NCBI GenBank assembly: GCA_944325095.1
Contig: CALUYV010000010.1
Coordinates: 1-40,718, forward strand
DNA from: Candidatus Gastranaerophilales bacterium
Lineage (GTDB): Bacteria > Cyanobacteriota > Vampirovibrionia > Gastranaerophilales > Gastranaerophilaceae
Length of the DNA stretch: 40,718 nt
Direction of reading: 5' to 3'
The position numbers were made by a program, and so were the translations under genes. The notes beneath the pieces were generated by a model. That model made no database searches. It saw only the letters and a list, made by a program, of their open reading frames with translations, and was not told the DNA's origin. This document shows positions 96 to 40,324 of this stretch, piece by piece (the stretch's first letter is position 1; every line of letters starts with the position of its first letter).

Positions 96-124
96 TTTAA
101 AAAATTTTCAAGGTCTGGTATAAT
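96..124 (+). promoter_or_regulatory. sigma70-type promoter of the envelope operon
   Basis: A TTTAAA -35-like hexamer (96-101) is separated by 17 bases from a perfect TATAAT (119-124). A TGG precedes the -10, giving an extended -10. The predicted start near 131 leaves a leader of about 36 bases with an AAGGA ribosome-binding site (155-159) before the ATG at 167. Confidence 0.6.
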
Positions 125-166
125 ATTAAAAAAGTTTTTGCTATTTTTTATCAGAAGGAATGTGTT

Positions 167-667
167 ATGAAAAAGATATTACTTATTTCACTTTTAGTTT
201 TGGGGATAATGACACCGTCTTTTGCAATTCAGGAGAACGGCAAAATCAGCAGAAAATGCCGCAAGCATCCTGAAAAATGCCAGGTGCCTTTAACAACTCC
301 TGTTCAGGAACAGCAGATGACATTAGGTCTTGTTCAGAAAAATATAGAAGTCGGAACATCCCAAGCAGATGTCGCCGTTCTTCTGGGGTCGCCCAATATT
401 GTTACACAGGATGCTGACGGTTATGAAACATGGATATATGACAAAGTTTCTTCTATTTCGGCATACGGAAGTTCCGGTTTTGGTGCCGGATTGGGAGGTC
501 TTGGAGGCGGCATAGGCTCAGGCGGCTTCGGCGGCGGTATTGCAAATGCCGGCTACAATAAAAAAGGCGGAGTTACTCAATCTGTTCAAAAAACTTTAAC
601 TGTTGTATTAAAATTTGATGATAATAAAAAAGTGTCGTCATTTACTTATCACATGAGCGCATTCTAG
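167..667 (+). CDS. BamE/SmpA-OmlA-like secreted protein with glycine-rich insert
   Basis: 166 residues. Residues 1-20 form a signal peptide (MKK, hydrophobic core, SFA before the cut) with no lipobox. Residues about 54-93 (LGLVQKNIEVG, VAVLLGSP, ADGYETWIYD) match the first half of the SmpA/OmlA (BamE-like) fold. Residues about 143-163 (LTVVLKFDDNKKVSSF) match its final strands. Between them, residues about 101-130 are almost entirely Gly with Ser, Ala, Phe and Leu. Such domains are periplasmic and often serve outer-membrane assembly; this exact role is inferred. Two cysteines (31 and 38) follow the signal peptide and could form a disulphide. It is the first gene of a four-gene operon, 9 bases before the next start. 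Confidence 0.75.
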   Translation: MKKILLISLLVLGIMTPSFAIQENGKISRKCRKHPEKCQVPLTTPVQEQQMTLGLVQKNIEVGTSQADVAVLLGSPNIVTQDADGYETWIYDKVSSISAYGSSGFGAGLGGLGGGIGSGGFGGGIANAGYNKKGGVTQSVQKTLTVVLKFDDNKKVSSFTYHMSAF

Positions 668-33567: not shown

Positions 33568-35337
33568 CTATTCTTTCTTAGTTTGTTTCGGGGTAACCTG
33601 AACTTTATCAGGTTTCAAGTCTAAAATTCTTGCTGTTTGCTCTGCAACTTCATGGAAAACAGGTCCCGCAATGGTATTACCCCAGACAGGCCCGACTTTT
33701 GCACTGTCAATAACAACATATATCAAAACCTGCGGATCAGTTGCCGGAAAATATCCGATTGTCGATGTGTACATAGCACCAGAATATCCCGTGCCGTTCT
33801 CATTAGGTTTTCTTGAGGTTCCTGTTTTAGCGGCAACATTATATTTATCCATTTTTATGTTTGAATTGCCGTTATTCACACTTATGGTAAGCAGTTTTGT
33901 AATTATTCTTGCAGTTTCAGGTGAAACTGTCGGAATTCGTTTAATTTTTTCTGCGGCTTCTTCTTCCGGGTATTTTATAACATGAGGAGTTACACGAACT
34001 CCGTTATTTGCCAGCGCAGAAACCGCTGAAACCATCTGCATAATTGATACAGATGTCCCGTATCCGTATGACATTGTCATATGAAGCCCTTTATCCCATA
34101 AATTAGGAGGAGCAAGCAGACCGGATGATTCACCCGGCAAATCTATACCCGATTTAGACCCGAAACCGAATTTCTTGAGCATATCATAAAACTCCTGATG
34201 GGTCATCAATGCTCCGATATTGACAGAACCTATGTTGCTTGAATGTTCAAAAAGATACACAAGATCTATTTTGCCGGGAGCCCCTTTTTGCTTGTAATCA
34301 TAATTTTCAATTGTGTATCCGCCGAATTTCATCCGTCCGGTATCTTCAATTATGGATTTTTCATTTATCTTGCCAAGTTCCATAGCACTTGTAACCGTGA
34401 TTGTTTTAAATGTTGAACCCGGCGGATAAACATCAGTCAGTGTCCAGTTTTTTATCTGCTGGTTTGTTGCCTTTTGAAACTGATTCGGATCATAAGTAGG
34501 ATAAACCGCATAGGCAAGGATTTCCCCGTTTTTAGGGTTCATTACAATAACCGCACCGCGCAATGCTTTCTTTTCTTCAATAATTTTGTTCAACTCTCTT
34601 TCACAGACGTGTTGAATAGCAGCATCTATGGTCAATGTAATATCCTGCCCTTTCGGATTTCTTGTAGGGCCGATAGGATCGGTCGGTATCTTATATATAA
34701 TTCTTCCGTCACGGGTTTTTTCGTATGTCGCACGTACCGCATGTTCAAGTTTGTCTTTGGCTGTCAATTCAACACCGTTTGATACTCCGGCATCAAAATT
34801 ATAAAAACCAAGTACATGTGAGGCAAAAACGCCTTGAGGATATTCTCTTGTGTTTTTCTTATCAAGACTGATAGAACGGAAATTATTTTCGTTCAATACT
34901 GCCATAACCTTTTTGGCAGTATCTCTGTCAACATCTTTCTTTACTGCAATTACAGGGATTTTACTGTTGGAGAGTTTGCTGTATAAATTTGCTTCCGATA
35001 TTCCAAGAATAGGCGAAAGAAGTTTTGCAATCTTTCTCGGGGTTTCTTTTTCAGAATATTCAACGGGACGGGCATAAATGTTATAATAAATCCTGTCTGT
35101 TGCAAGTTTTATCCCGTGCCTGTCATATATATCGCCTCGTACGGCAAAATCGTGATTTGCCCGTTGGATTCTGCCTCTTTCACGATAATTGTGCGGATCA
35201 AAAATCTGCAGTTTAATAAGGTGGAATGCAAGTATCGCAATAGCAACCCAATAAAGAGCCGTTAAAACTTTTACTCTTTTATTGCAGCCTCTACCTCTGG
35301 GTAATCTGCGGTTTTTATCCTTCTCTCCGCTGTTCAC
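33568..35337 (-). CDS. ftsI: class B penicillin-binding protein (FtsI/PBP3-like transpeptidase)
   Basis: 589 residues, GTG start with GAGGGA upstream. Short basic cytoplasmic tail, one membrane helix (VLTALYWVAIAILAFHLIKL, about 24-43), a dimerisation/pedestal domain (RGDIYDRHG) and the transpeptidase domain. Catalytic motifs: SxxK with S308 and K311 in YPPGSTFKT, SSN at 366-368, and KTG at 504-506. No PASTA domain. It crosslinks peptidoglycan, probably at the septum. Followed by murE as in many division/cell-wall clusters, but ftsL and mraW are not upstream. Instead it is divergent from the pseudo-amidase gene. Confidence 0.9.
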   Translation of the reverse strand: MNSGEKDKNRRLPRGRGCNKRVKVLTALYWVAIAILAFHLIKLQIFDPHNYRERGRIQRANHDFAVRGDIYDRHGIKLATDRIYYNIYARPVEYSEKETPRKIAKLLSPILGISEANLYSKLSNSKIPVIAVKKDVDRDTAKKVMAVLNENNFRSISLDKKNTREYPQGVFASHVLGFYNFDAGVSNGVELTAKDKLEHAVRATYEKTRDGRIIYKIPTDPIGPTRNPKGQDITLTIDAAIQHVCERELNKIIEEKKALRGAVIVMNPKNGEILAYAVYPTYDPNQFQKATNQQIKNWTLTDVYPPGSTFKTITVTSAMELGKINEKSIIEDTGRMKFGGYTIENYDYKQKGAPGKIDLVYLFEHSSNIGSVNIGALMTHQEFYDMLKKFGFGSKSGIDLPGESSGLLAPPNLWDKGLHMTMSYGYGTSVSIMQMVSAVSALANNGVRVTPHVIKYPEEEAAEKIKRIPTVSPETARIITKLLTISVNNGNSNIKMDKYNVAAKTGTSRKPNENGTGYSGAMYTSTIGYFPATDPQVLIYVVIDSAKVGPVWGNTIAGPVFHEVAEQTARILDLKPDKVQVTPKQTKKE

Positions 35338-35447: not shown

Positions 35448-36689
35448 ATGAAAAAGTACATAACAGGAATAACATCTTTATTGTTTTTGACATTCTCGCT
35501 ATTCTCATACGGAATAGCAGAGGAAATTCCGACAAAACAGACCGAAAACAATACACCTCAAGCAGCCAAAACACCGGCTTCTGTTGATAACACCCCTGAT
35601 ATTAAATCTGATTCCATAACAAAATTTGAAAAAACCGCAGTGGTTGTTACATTGTATGACGGAGTTTATTTACGTTCAATGCCGAATAATGTTGACAGCA
35701 CAATTCTTGAAACTTTTGACAGAGGGATTCCGCTCAATATTTCGGGAGAATATAACGATTTTTATCAGGTTCATCTTGCACGGGATGATTATGCCTGGAT
35801 AGACAAAAAATCTGTTGCCCCTATAAATGGATACAACAATTCACCTGCAAATATCGAAAGTTTTGTATATGAAGAAACTCCGGAAATGAGAATTTATACT
35901 ATTAAGTTGAATAAAAAAGTTCCTTACCTTTTATCTGAGTCTATTTTATATAGAACTGAGCATTTCATAAAATATTCTGACGGACTGGATCTTATTGTAT
36001 ATAATGTAAATGATTATCCTGAAAACAAATACGAAATACACCTGAATAAAACAGGAGCAAAAGATTTCGGGTACAAAATCTTTTATAAAAATAACAATGA
36101 ACTCGTTATAAAAGTTAAAAATTATCCCGTTATAAAACCGCCGAAATTTCTTGAAGGCATTAAAATCACACTTGCAAATACGGTACAGGATTCTGACAGC
36201 GAAAATTTGAAAGCCCAAAATGAATTCCTTATTCAAAAATTAAAGAATTTGTTAGAAAAATCCGGAGCGGCTGTATGTTTATCAGATACAACAGAATGCA
36301 AAGATACGGATATATTTCTTGCTGTTAACCTGGTTAATTCTTCTGACGATTTTAAAAATAAAACGGGCGGAGTTTCCGCTTCATACTATTATGCCCACTC
36401 CTCAGGACTTGCCTCAAAAATTTCTGATACCCTTGCTTTTCATACGGCATTGAAACATTACGAAATAGAAAGAAAAGCAGAAGATATTATTATGAATACG
36501 GAATATCCTTCAGTTTTGATTAATATTTCACACAAGGCGCAATCCGGTATTGATAACGATTTATCAGACAAAGAATTTTGCAGTTCAGCAGCAAAATCAA
36601 TAGTTAAAGGACTTATGCAGTATTTCAACGACAAACCGATTGAAGTATGTGAATATAAGCCTAAAAAGCATAAGAAAAAGAAAGAATAA
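35448..36689 (+). CDS. SH3 protein with degenerate (inactive-looking) amidase_3 domain
   Basis: 413 residues. Signal peptide about 1-24, then a Thr/Pro/Gln-rich linker. A bacterial SH3 domain follows (about 64-123: VVVTLYDGVYLRSMPNN to DDYAWIDKKSV), then a beta-rich region (about 140-230) and a C-terminal amidase_3-like fold (about 236-393). That fold aligns with the intact amidase at 38468-40324, but the DPGHGG segment is missing. No His occurs where HVNSS is expected (DIFLAVNLVNSS), and the catalytic Glu of LVEVGF is Asn359 (VLINIS). It is therefore probably a non-catalytic wall-binding or amidase-regulating protein. The very basic tail (KKHKKKKE) is unusual. Divergent from the PBP gene. 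Confidence 0.75.
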   Translation: MKKYITGITSLLFLTFSLFSYGIAEEIPTKQTENNTPQAAKTPASVDNTPDIKSDSITKFEKTAVVVTLYDGVYLRSMPNNVDSTILETFDRGIPLNISGEYNDFYQVHLARDDYAWIDKKSVAPINGYNNSPANIESFVYEETPEMRIYTIKLNKKVPYLLSESILYRTEHFIKYSDGLDLIVYNVNDYPENKYEIHLNKTGAKDFGYKIFYKNNNELVIKVKNYPVIKPPKFLEGIKITLANTVQDSDSENLKAQNEFLIQKLKNLLEKSGAAVCLSDTTECKDTDIFLAVNLVNSSDDFKNKTGGVSASYYYAHSSGLASKISDTLAFHTALKHYEIERKAEDIIMNTEYPSVLINISHKAQSGIDNDLSDKEFCSSAAKSIVKGLMQYFNDKPIEVCEYKPKKHKKKKE

Positions 36690-36693
36690 TTAA

Positions 36694-37683
36694 ATGTTTG
36701 ATAAGAATTTAAAAACAGGGGCATTTATAGTACCGACAGGCATTGGAGCATCTATCGGAGGATATGCGGGAGATGCAGGTGCTTATGCCCGAAAATTTGC
36801 TGAAAATACAAATTTAATAGTAAACCCGAATGTTGTAAATGCCGGCGGTTTTTCGGCAATTACCAACAAAATGCTTTATACAGAAGGTTTTGCAATTGAT
36901 ATGTTTTTTAAAGGGGAAATTAACCTAATGCCGTCCAAGAACAACAAAATCGGCATCATTTATGATAAAGCCATACCGCAGGAGATATTAAATATACATA
37001 TAAACACTCAAAATGCTGTTCAGGTTGTTTACGGAATTGATATCGGCGGTTATACCATAACGGAAGAAGAAGTCGGGGTTGAATTTTTTGTCGATAAATG
37101 CGGGATTTCAACAGGGAATGTAAAAAATATTGAAACCCTCGGCAAATCATGTGAAAAACTATTAGCCTCCGGTTGTGATGCAATCGCAATTGTATGTTTG
37201 TTTGAGGATTCTTTTGAAGATAATCCCGATTATGCAAACGGTACCGGAGTCGATCCTGTTGGCGGAGTCGAAGCAATACTATCACATTACATAACTAAAC
37301 ATTATAATATTCCTTGTGCACATTCACCTGCATTCAGAGATTGCGAAATAGAAAAAAGTATTGTTAACCCGAAATCAGCCTCAGAATATATTACTCCGAC
37401 ATTCCTGCCCTGCATATTATTAGGGCTTTCGCAGGCTCCAAAAATAACAAAAATCAATTCAAATAACAGTATAAACATCAGTGATATTGACTTTCTTGTT
37501 ATGCCGTACAATTCACTCGGTTCTGTTCCTGTCCTTGAAGCAATCTCCCGCAGCATTCCGGTATTTGCAATACGGGAAAACACAACCGTTCTTGATGTGG
37601 ATGCCGTTAAACTTGGGATAAAAAACAGTATTATTGAAGTTCCTGCTTATGATGAATGCCTGAAATTAATTTTAAAAAGTTAA
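36694..37683 (+). CDS. DUF3326 protein
   Basis: 329 residues, no signal peptide. Opens TGAFIVPTGIGASIGGYAGDAGAYAR and continues NLIVNPNVVNAGGF, MLYTEGFAIDMFF, GCDAIAIVCLFEDS, GVDPVGGVEAILSHYI and PTFLPCILLGLSQAP, as in DUF3326 proteins of cyanobacteria and plants. The final third has ALPV-type SVPVLEAISRSIPVFAIRENTTVLDV. The biochemical function of this family is unknown to me; the Gly-rich N-terminal loop and repeated alpha/beta pattern suggest a small-molecule site. It follows the previous gene by four bases without a Shine-Dalgarno, so it probably depends on coupled translation. Overlaps murI by 12 bases at the convergent ends. Confidence 0.8.
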   Translation: MFDKNLKTGAFIVPTGIGASIGGYAGDAGAYARKFAENTNLIVNPNVVNAGGFSAITNKMLYTEGFAIDMFFKGEINLMPSKNNKIGIIYDKAIPQEILNIHINTQNAVQVVYGIDIGGYTITEEEVGVEFFVDKCGISTGNVKNIETLGKSCEKLLASGCDAIAIVCLFEDSFEDNPDYANGTGVDPVGGVEAILSHYITKHYNIPCAHSPAFRDCEIEKSIVNPKSASEYITPTFLPCILLGLSQAPKITKINSNNSINISDIDFLVMPYNSLGSVPVLEAISRSIPVFAIRENTTVLDVDAVKLGIKNSIIEVPAYDECLKLILKS

Positions 37684-38484
37684 TAGTTCCGGCTCTTTTT
37701 CAAGTTCATAAAATAGTTTGGCAGAAGATTTAAACATTGCAGGATTTGCACTTACATAAAATTTACCGTTCCCCTCTATTTGGGATGAAGTCAACAAGCC
37801 TTTCTGGGCTAAATCTTCTTTTATAAATTCCGCAAAATCCTCCGCCGGATCTATAAACATTTCAGAAGGTGCAAATTTTGCAAGAATATCTGTTAAAAAC
37901 GGATAATGAGTACAGCCCAGAACAATTTTTTCAGGCTTATTCACAAGCATTTTATCTAAATCATTTTTTATAATTCCGGCACTTTTTTCTTCATTTATCA
38001 GAGATTTTTCTACAATATTGACCCATTCAGGACAAAACTGTCCGAATACTTCCATATCCGGATTATATTTTGCAATTTCTCTCGGATATGCCTGAGAAAG
38101 AATAGTTCTGTGTGTTGCAAAAACACCGAGCCTTTTAATCGGAAGTTTTGCCAGAAGTTTTGCTGCAGACTGAACAATCGGATAAATTTCAAAATTGTAT
38201 TTATCTTTAATATCCTGATATATAGTAGAAGAAGTTGTATTACAAGCCATAACAACGGCTTTACAACTCTGCGATTCAAAAAATTTAAATATACTGTCGG
38301 AATACTCAAGCAGTTGTTCTTTTGTTTTTTCACCGTACGGAGTATGGATAGTATCCCCGTAATATATAAAATTTTCATTCGGGAGAAGTTTTCTAACCTT
38401 GTTCAAAACCGTCAGCCCGCCGACACCTGAATCAACAAAACCAATCGGGGAATTACTGTTAAGTTTGCTATTTAAGATATTCAT
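37672..38484 (-). CDS. murI: glutamate racemase
   Basis: 270 residues. Makes D-glutamate for peptidoglycan. Hallmarks: GFVDSGVGGLTVLNKV, YYGDTIHTPYG, the first catalytic Cys in VMACNTTSS, and the second in VLGCTHYPFL. Its start lies 17 bases inside the end of the amidase gene, with GAGGGT just before the ATG, so the two are translationally coupled. The C-terminus overlaps the DUF3326 gene. Confidence 0.95.
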   Translation of the reverse strand: MNILNSKLNSNSPIGFVDSGVGGLTVLNKVRKLLPNENFIYYGDTIHTPYGEKTKEQLLEYSDSIFKFFESQSCKAVVMACNTTSSTIYQDIKDKYNFEIYPIVQSAAKLLAKLPIKRLGVFATHRTILSQAYPREIAKYNPDMEVFGQFCPEWVNIVEKSLINEEKSAGIIKNDLDKMLVNKPEKIVLGCTHYPFLTDILAKFAPSEMFIDPAEDFAEFIKEDLAQKGLLTSSQIEGNGKFYVSANPAMFKSSAKLFYELEKEPELLTF

Positions 38485-40324
38485 AAATACCCTCAGCTAT
38501 TGCCTTTGCGGTTGCCTGTTTTCTGCTTTCGGTAACCAACTGCTCCCGTTCTGCAGCGTTTGAAAGGAAACCGACTTCAACTAAAACAGCCGGTGCTGTC
38601 GTGTGATTTATAACATAAAATTTCGATTTAAACAAGCCGCGGTCTTTTGCTTTAATATGATTGAGCATCGAGGCGTGAATTGTTTTGGCAAGCGTTAAAC
38701 TGTTATCTTTATAATAGTGGGTTTCAACACCGTTAGGAGATTCGGAATTGCTTGAATTAACATGGACACTTACAAACAAATCAGGATTAACATTTTCACT
38801 TATCGCAACACGATCCTGAAGCGATACCGTAGAATCGTCATCACGGGTCATATAAACATCTACGCCTTTACTCGTCAGAATCTCCGCTACACGATTTGAA
38901 ATATCAAGAGTTATATTTTTCTCGTTAATTTTACCGCGAATAGCACCGCAATCGCTGCCGCCATGACCCGGGTCAATTACAACAACCATCTCTGCAGGCT
39001 TATTCGGAGATATAACTACCGGAGGCACAGTGATAACAGGAGATTCATCCTTTTTAGGGAGTTCAATAACTTTTGATTTAATTTTCAGGCGGATAGTTTT
39101 ACCGTCATTGCCTGTATGAATATCAACAATATCCTCTTGATACAAAGGAATTGTTAATTTAATTCCTTTGCCGGACAATGAGGACATTTCTGCACCGTCA
39201 AAGAGCAAAGACTCTTTTAAATCAATATCATTGACTTTATTCACATTGAATAAATACAAATCAATTTTATCGGATTGTCTGTCTATACCGTATGTAACAG
39301 GTTTTGAAAAAATCAATTTTACACAATGGGTTGTTGTGTCAATAATATCATCAGTAACGGAATTAAATACGGCATCCGGATGCTGGAGCAGCGGTCGTTT
39401 GCCGGTTATTGTATCTACAAATTCAACATTCTGCCCGTCAGGAGAAATAACAGGCATATAGGCTTCAGCATATTTGCTTGTTATGACAATTCTGGCAGTC
39501 GTATTTTCAAACTGACCTATCTTTACTGTTTCTGTTTGTGTTATATACAATTCCCTGTTGCGAATTGCAGGATTTACAATTGTATTCGGAATATCATACA
39601 CAATACGGGTAGGATTTGACAGTGTAAACGGTTTTGTTAATGTAACCGCACCAATACCGTTAACTTGAATTACACCGTTTTTAATATCAAAATTATCTAT
39701 ATAATATTTGGAATTAAGCAAAAGTTCTTTTTTTGTCAAAACATAATTTTTATCTTCCGTAGTTGCGCCGAGCTGAAATGCGGCGTTAATCTGGCTGACT
39801 ATATCATTAGCAGCAATTTGCAGAGGAATCTGGATACCTACAGGAGTATAAAATTTACCTATTGTTGAAGCCGCATCAGTATAAACATGCTGGAAATAGT
39901 AATTCTGTATTTGTGCTGTTGCAAACCTGACAAATAAAGTATTACTCAAAATCTTCAACTGTATATTTTTCGGATTGAAAGATTCTTTATAATGAATAAC
40001 AACTCTTACTATATCAGGAGAGTTTGAATACTGTTTTACAATAATTTCTTTTATCTCCGAAGATGCGATAACAAAATCCTGTGCGGTAGTCTGCAGCAAT
40101 GCCGAATCTATATCAAAATATGCTTTGTGAGCCGCTTCATCAACATGGAGTTTCGGAACAGTCTGAAATGCCAGATCATCGCTGCTTTTTGTATTTATAG
40201 TTAAAAATGCCGCAGAATTATCATATACAACAGAAGTAATGTCAATATTTGCAGCCAGAACTTTCCCCGCAAAGCAGAGGATAAATGCGATTATACATAT
40301 AAAAGTTAGAAAAAATTTTTTCAT
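38468..40324 (-). CDS. amiC: AMIN-domain N-acetylmuramoyl-L-alanine amidase (AmiC-type)
   Basis: 618 residues. Signal peptide about 1-24. Two or three AMIN-like beta modules (about 25-135, 205-300 and 315-420) that bind peptidoglycan, a Pro/Val-rich linker, then amidase_3 (446-618). The zinc site is complete: H454 in DPGHGG, E468 and H521 in SVHVNSS, with catalytic E583 in LVEVGF. It cleaves the MurNAc-L-Ala bond during cell separation. In cyanobacteria AmiC also perforates septa in filaments. TAGGTA precedes the ATG, and a minus-strand TATAAT (40342-40347) lies very close to it. First gene of an operon with murI. Confidence 0.93.
   Translation of the reverse strand: MKKFFLTFICIIAFILCFAGKVLAANIDITSVVYDNSAAFLTINTKSSDDLAFQTVPKLHVDEAAHKAYFDIDSALLQTTAQDFVIASSEIKEIIVKQYSNSPDIVRVVIHYKESFNPKNIQLKILSNTLFVRFATAQIQNYYFQHVYTDAASTIGKFYTPVGIQIPLQIAANDIVSQINAAFQLGATTEDKNYVLTKKELLLNSKYYIDNFDIKNGVIQVNGIGAVTLTKPFTLSNPTRIVYDIPNTIVNPAIRNRELYITQTETVKIGQFENTTARIVITSKYAEAYMPVISPDGQNVEFVDTITGKRPLLQHPDAVFNSVTDDIIDTTTHCVKLIFSKPVTYGIDRQSDKIDLYLFNVNKVNDIDLKESLLFDGAEMSSLSGKGIKLTIPLYQEDIVDIHTGNDGKTIRLKIKSKVIELPKKDESPVITVPPVVISPNKPAEMVVVIDPGHGGSDCGAIRGKINEKNITLDISNRVAEILTSKGVDVYMTRDDDSTVSLQDRVAISENVNPDLFVSVHVNSSNSESPNGVETHYYKDNSLTLAKTIHASMLNHIKAKDRGLFKSKFYVINHTTAPAVLVEVGFLSNAAEREQLVTESRKQATAKAIAEGIYEYLK

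Follow-up and report, generated by a model that had tools for sequence, protein, structure and literature searches.

A lineage-specific, probably exported pseudo-amidase at the murI-amiC locus of a Gastranaerophilales bacterium

Inactive homologues of cell wall hydrolases are already known as regulators; the route by which an enzyme becomes a regulator is seldom visible. The mycobacterial protein CwlM is a homologue of the Amidase_3 family whose essential role is regulatory and not enzymatic, and complementation is still obtained with a CwlM allele from which all four zinc ligands are missing (PMC4946905). The targets of the LytM activators are amidases that carry an autoinhibitory helix, and helix-less amidases such as AmiC2 and CwlV are active alone (PMC8496864). 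Dependence on a partner is also found among helix-less amidases, as for CwlD with GerS and LytH with ActH (PMC8496864). Our literature search found no paper joining Gastranaerophilales, peptidoglycan and amidase. Here we describe a gene in a 40,718-nucleotide stretch of DNA from a Gastranaerophilales bacterium (the window, meaning the whole stretch analyzed), the product of which is a genuine lineage-specific pseudo-amidase, new both as an instance and as a variant that is probably exported.

The gene (35448-36689, + strand) is an intact open reading frame of 413 codons plus stop, at a locus shared by its orthologues. It is divergent from an FtsI-like penicillin-binding protein (PBP) gene (33568-35337, - strand; Pfam Transpeptidase, E=6e-72), which the first-pass annotation had correctly placed there. 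Directly 3' lies a gene for a DUF3326 protein (36694-37683, + strand; Pfam DUF3326, E=7e-90), then murI, coding for glutamate racemase and recognized by sequence motifs (37672-38484, - strand); synteny supports all three assignments. The amiC gene follows (38468-40324, - strand), and its product is the intact AmiC that had been announced, with Amidase_3 (Pfam E=2.1e-56) and AMIN domains and alignments to structures 5emi and 1jwq. Besides AmiC, the genome holds a long Amidase_3 protein. No Rfam match was found in the window.

The order PBP / SH3-amidase-DUF3326 / murI-amiC is common to seven other genomes (G030, G040, G043, G045, G038, G042 and G001), and in G032 it matches as far as the contig reaches. 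In all syntenic genomes examined, the gene immediately after that for the SH3-amidase or pseudo-amidase is the DUF3326 gene, with an overlap of a few bases in G040. In G025 (94% complete), murI-amiC is present without an adjoining SH3-amidase, DUF3326 or PBP gene (L075, G025:C3); that whole genome gave a single Amidase_3 match, and complete loss of the SH3-amidase is possible. A second murI-amiC pair, 55% and 42% identical to that of the window, is found on a 4-kb contig of the same metagenome-assembled genome (MAG) (G000:C98; L076, 5-2543), and it possibly reflects contamination from another species.

The domain architecture, encoded throughout on the + strand, begins with a probable signal peptide (residues 1-24, 35448-35519), read by eye from a lysine-rich start and a hydrophobic stretch, on the basis of which the protein is probably exported. 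An SH3_3 domain follows (residues 71-123, 35658-35816); its Pfam score (E=3.1e-4) is under the curated cut-off, and residues 62-139 of the structural model match the SH3 structure 2kt8 with a Z of 8.2. Residues 136-232 (35853-36143) tentatively form an AMIN-like beta region, assigned from identity and from the model of the G030 orthologue. No other part of the protein is as well conserved, with 78% identity between the window and G030. The G030 model aligned to Escherichia coli AmiC (4bin) over 119..394, reaching into its AMIN domain, a weak structural hint as pLDDT is low at residues 160-206; profile searches of the window protein and its orthologues gave no Pfam AMIN match. The pseudo-amidase domain (residues 236-396, 36153-36635), delimited by Pfam, fold and alignment, has the Amidase_3 fold without its active site. 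The protein ends with a lysine-rich tail, PIEVCEYKPKKHKKKKE (36636-36686), confined to the window protein in the first orthologue alignment, in which all orthologues end soon after the last helix. The first-pass description, of a secreted protein that joins SH3 to a pseudo-amidase domain, was right, secretion being probable from the sequence.

By itself, the window protein matches Amidase_3 at residues 263-389 with an E value of 1.7e-4, under the curated Pfam cut-off. Its orthologues in two related species, G030 (L033:5878-7068) and G040 (L005:1396-2589), are approximately 50% identical to it and match Amidase_3 with E values of 4e-20 and 5e-21, respectively. The homology is secure because of these two intermediates. 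We built an AlphaFold2 model, in which the pLDDT of the C-terminal domain is mostly 70-92. Superposition of residues 234-396 on Amidase_3 crystal structures, including those of LytH, CwlD and Nostoc AmiC2, gave Z scores of 16-19 and rmsd values of 2.2-2.9 Å over approximately 150 residues, which supplies the structural match to Amidase_3 on which the first-pass annotation had made its proposal depend. As two of the four sequences in the alignment underlying the model were active homologues, we checked the hydrophobic core independently. Among the 33 hydrophobic core columns of the active orthologues, 25 are still hydrophobic in the window protein, compared with a domain average of 40%, a level that was not attained in any of 20,000 permutations. 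Pfam, orthologues and structure all place the protein in the Amidase_3 fold superfamily (PF01520).

All four key positions of the active site are replaced. According to the orthologue alignment, Val246 (36183-36185) stands in place of the first zinc His of the DxGHGG motif, Asn294 (36327-36329) in place of the second zinc His (S-I-H-N-N), and Asn359 (36522-36524) in place of the catalytic Glu. Leu254 (36207-36209) takes the place of the Glu zinc ligand (EKD), the least certain of the four assignments, since a deletion adjoins it. The loss of both zinc His residues and of the catalytic Glu had been noted from the sequence alone and is borne out, and the Glu ligand has gone as well. The proteins of the window, G030 and G040 also lack, in the alignment, the DxGHGG loop and a segment with an invariant L..RV that lies beside the active site in intact proteins. 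Judged by its residues, with neither the His-Glu-His ligands nor the catalytic Glu, the window protein is outside the active zinc amidases of the family. In G030 and G040, an Asn or Asp occupies the position of the first His, and the Glu ligand, second His and catalytic Glu are kept. We infer from the lost loop and the deletion that these two proteins are inactive as well, despite three of the four residues being kept. A conserved KYP[YF]KKCPCL sequence with a pair of cysteines replaces the lost loop in both of them.

The His-Glu-His-Glu set is complete in all 50 other orthologues of the 53 that were aligned. The inactivation is therefore lineage-specific, and a conserved family of inactive amidases, or of regulators, is ruled out. 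The first-pass annotation had counted retention of the His and Glu residues in orthologues against its reading; formally, such retention is what we found, including three of four residues in G030 and G040, yet the inactivity of the window protein itself stands. A match to the window protein was found in 43 of the 46 genomes of the genus, although a few of these matches cover the amidase part alone and may represent another amidase. A search for Amidase_3 extended to 383 genomes of the family, with the stronger matches listed; the count of inactivated proteins covers the 53 aligned orthologues, and independent losses may have occurred elsewhere in the family. By synteny and tree, the window protein is orthologous to an SH3-amidase that most species of the genus possess. 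As this SH3-amidase is separate from AmiC and adjoins amiC in the relatives, a recent duplication of the neighboring AmiC is ruled out. Nearly all other aligned orthologues carry an extra N-terminal domain (IVYPK...TFFIGNE), which in L035 is Glucodextran_B-like (E=1.8e-4). The window protein shares the syntenic position of that group but not this domain, which is also absent from the G030 and G040 proteins.

We calculated the orthologue tree on the SH3 and AMIN columns alone, so that the lost site could not bias it. The window, G030 and G040 proteins formed one clade (support 99/92), with the active G032 protein as the sister of the three degenerate proteins (enclosing clade, 100/99). A tree of three neighboring genes also grouped the four species, with a support of 100, while the placement of G032 relative to the window was poorly resolved (73/63). 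Because of the SH3-AMIN tree and the shared deletions, a single origin of the loss is indicated. The parsimonious account, drawn from the aligned sequences, is a stepwise, lineage-specific inactivation, namely one event with shared deletions and then erosion in the lineage of the window.

We then considered the constraint on the domain after its inactivation. Between G030 and G040, which both already lack the metal loop, the pseudo-domain has a dN of 0.24, a dS of 0.85 and an omega of 0.29 (bootstrap, 0.18-0.43). The two sequences are 63.5% identical with no stop codon, whereas neutral drift simulated to the same dS gave 18% identity and approximately 13 stops. For the window compared with G030, omega was 0.39 (bootstrap, 0.07-0.66), with dS near saturation, so that constraint is less securely established along the branch leading to the window. 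Closely related pairs of active proteins gave omega values of 0.05-0.14. Constraint on the pseudo-domain is thus relaxed but real, statistically so in G030 and G040 and supported for the window, and this purifying selection favors some non-catalytic role. Nevertheless, the pseudo-domain is only 38% identical between the window and G030, versus 78% for the AMIN-like part. Such faster evolution is as expected of a weakly needed domain and counts against our best explanation.

That explanation is that the protein is a lineage-specific pseudoenzyme with a selected non-cutting role, derived from a probably exported zinc N-acetylmuramoyl-L-alanine amidase; we give it a probability of roughly 0.55. 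Most likely, the protein binds the wall or a partner and has no catalytic role. That zinc amidase, which most species of the genus have kept, consists of the N-terminal domain, SH3, AMIN-like region and Amidase_3. The alignment shows that the common ancestor of the three species lost the N-terminal domain together with two features of the active site, its metal-binding DxGHGG loop and the adjacent L..RV segment, and that the two remaining zinc ligands and the catalytic Glu also went in the lineage of the window. The domain has kept its fold, with purifying selection continuing after inactivation, statistically in G030 and G040 and with some support for the window. The SH3 and AMIN-like parts may anchor the exported protein to peptidoglycan, while the inactive amidase fold would offer a binding surface for a glycan, a peptide or a protein partner without cutting it. 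Cleavage of the wall would be the work of AmiC and of a third amidase, the long Amidase_3 protein. More specifically, and only tentatively, a wall amidase may have been turned, by steps still legible in living species, into an exported, non-catalytic protein that binds peptidoglycan or regulates, comparable to CwlM but extracytoplasmic and of independent origin in these gut-dwelling relatives of cyanobacteria. In closely related species, one syntenic locus holds an active form, a partly degenerate one and a fully degenerate one, so that the losses, their order and the features retained by selection are directly testable. The pseudo-amidase gene should not be annotated as an active amidase.

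The domain might instead be vestigial, with the SH3 and AMIN-like parts functional and the former amidase reduced to a folded C-terminal cap that decays slowly and plays no part in binding. In the degenerate clade the amidase domain has evolved markedly faster than the AMIN-like part, which agrees with this, as does the stepwise and continuing loss of site residues; omega clearly below 1, the absence of truncation in three species and the retained hydrophobic core do not, although those signs show selection for folding and not for binding. We consider it rather unlikely. Residual cutting through a rearranged metal site or a complex, with the KKCPC cysteines of G030 and G040 standing in for the His, would draw on the Glu, His and catalytic Glu that those two proteins retain and on their new shared cysteine motif by the lost loop. 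It is very improbable, given that the window protein has neither the KKCPC segment nor any ligand and that all three proteins have lost the L..RV segment. Even slighter is the chance of a pseudogene or an assembly artefact: the window's species is known from a single MAG and its divergence is fast, but the reading frame is intact in three independently assembled species with omega below 1. A pseudogene as such is ruled out by the omega below 1 in G030 and G040 and by their absence of stops relative to the neutral simulation.

The first-pass annotation had also proposed that the pseudo-amidase regulates or localizes AmiC, as degenerate LytM proteins do, and this part found no direct support. 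Direct activation, inhibition or localization of the neighboring AmiC, in the manner of degenerate LytM proteins acting on AmiA/B/C, is suggested by the synteny of the gene with amiC and by the existence of regulatory dead hydrolase homologues (EnvC, CwlM; PMC4946905). It also agrees with our finding no degenerate LytM protein in the window's genome, as the lone M23 match (G000:C9) keeps HxxxD and HxH. The synteny is no mark of regulation, however, because it is equally present in species in which the SH3-amidase is active. Furthermore, helix-less Nostoc AmiC2 and CwlV (5emi, 1jwq) can be aligned with the window's AmiC from one end to the other without insertion, and LytM-style control of this AmiC is unsupported because it lacks the autoinhibitory helix insertion that LytM activators target (PMC8496864). 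As helix-less amidases can depend on partners, an effect on AmiC is still conceivable; we regard direct regulation of AmiC as doubtful. The sole M23 protein of this genome (L103:649-1812, G000:C9) combines an EnvC-like coiled coil with a LytM/M23 domain whose catalytic motifs are intact.

The protein of the window can be set against four kinds of relatives. The SH3/AMIN-like Amidase_3 orthologues of Gastranaerophilales, such as those of G032 and G043, share its locus, its SH3 and AMIN-like parts and its fold, but they have an intact His-Glu-His-Glu set and, nearly all of them, the extra N-terminal domain. LytH (with ActH, Staphylococcus aureus) and CwlD (with GerS, Clostridioides difficile) are among its closest solved folds (Z of 18.8 and 18.4) and need a binding partner (PMC8496864), but they are active enzymes. 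EnvC and NlpD, the degenerate LytM activators, are likewise dead relatives of wall hydrolases; they differ in having the M23 fold and in acting on amidases with an autoinhibitory helix, and the analogy with them appears weak. The closest functional precedent for the pseudo-amidase is CwlM. CwlM, however, is a cytoplasmic protein with MurA as its target, whereas the window protein carries SH3 and AMIN-like parts and, judging by its sequence, is probably exported; it is therefore unlikely to be of the CwlM type.
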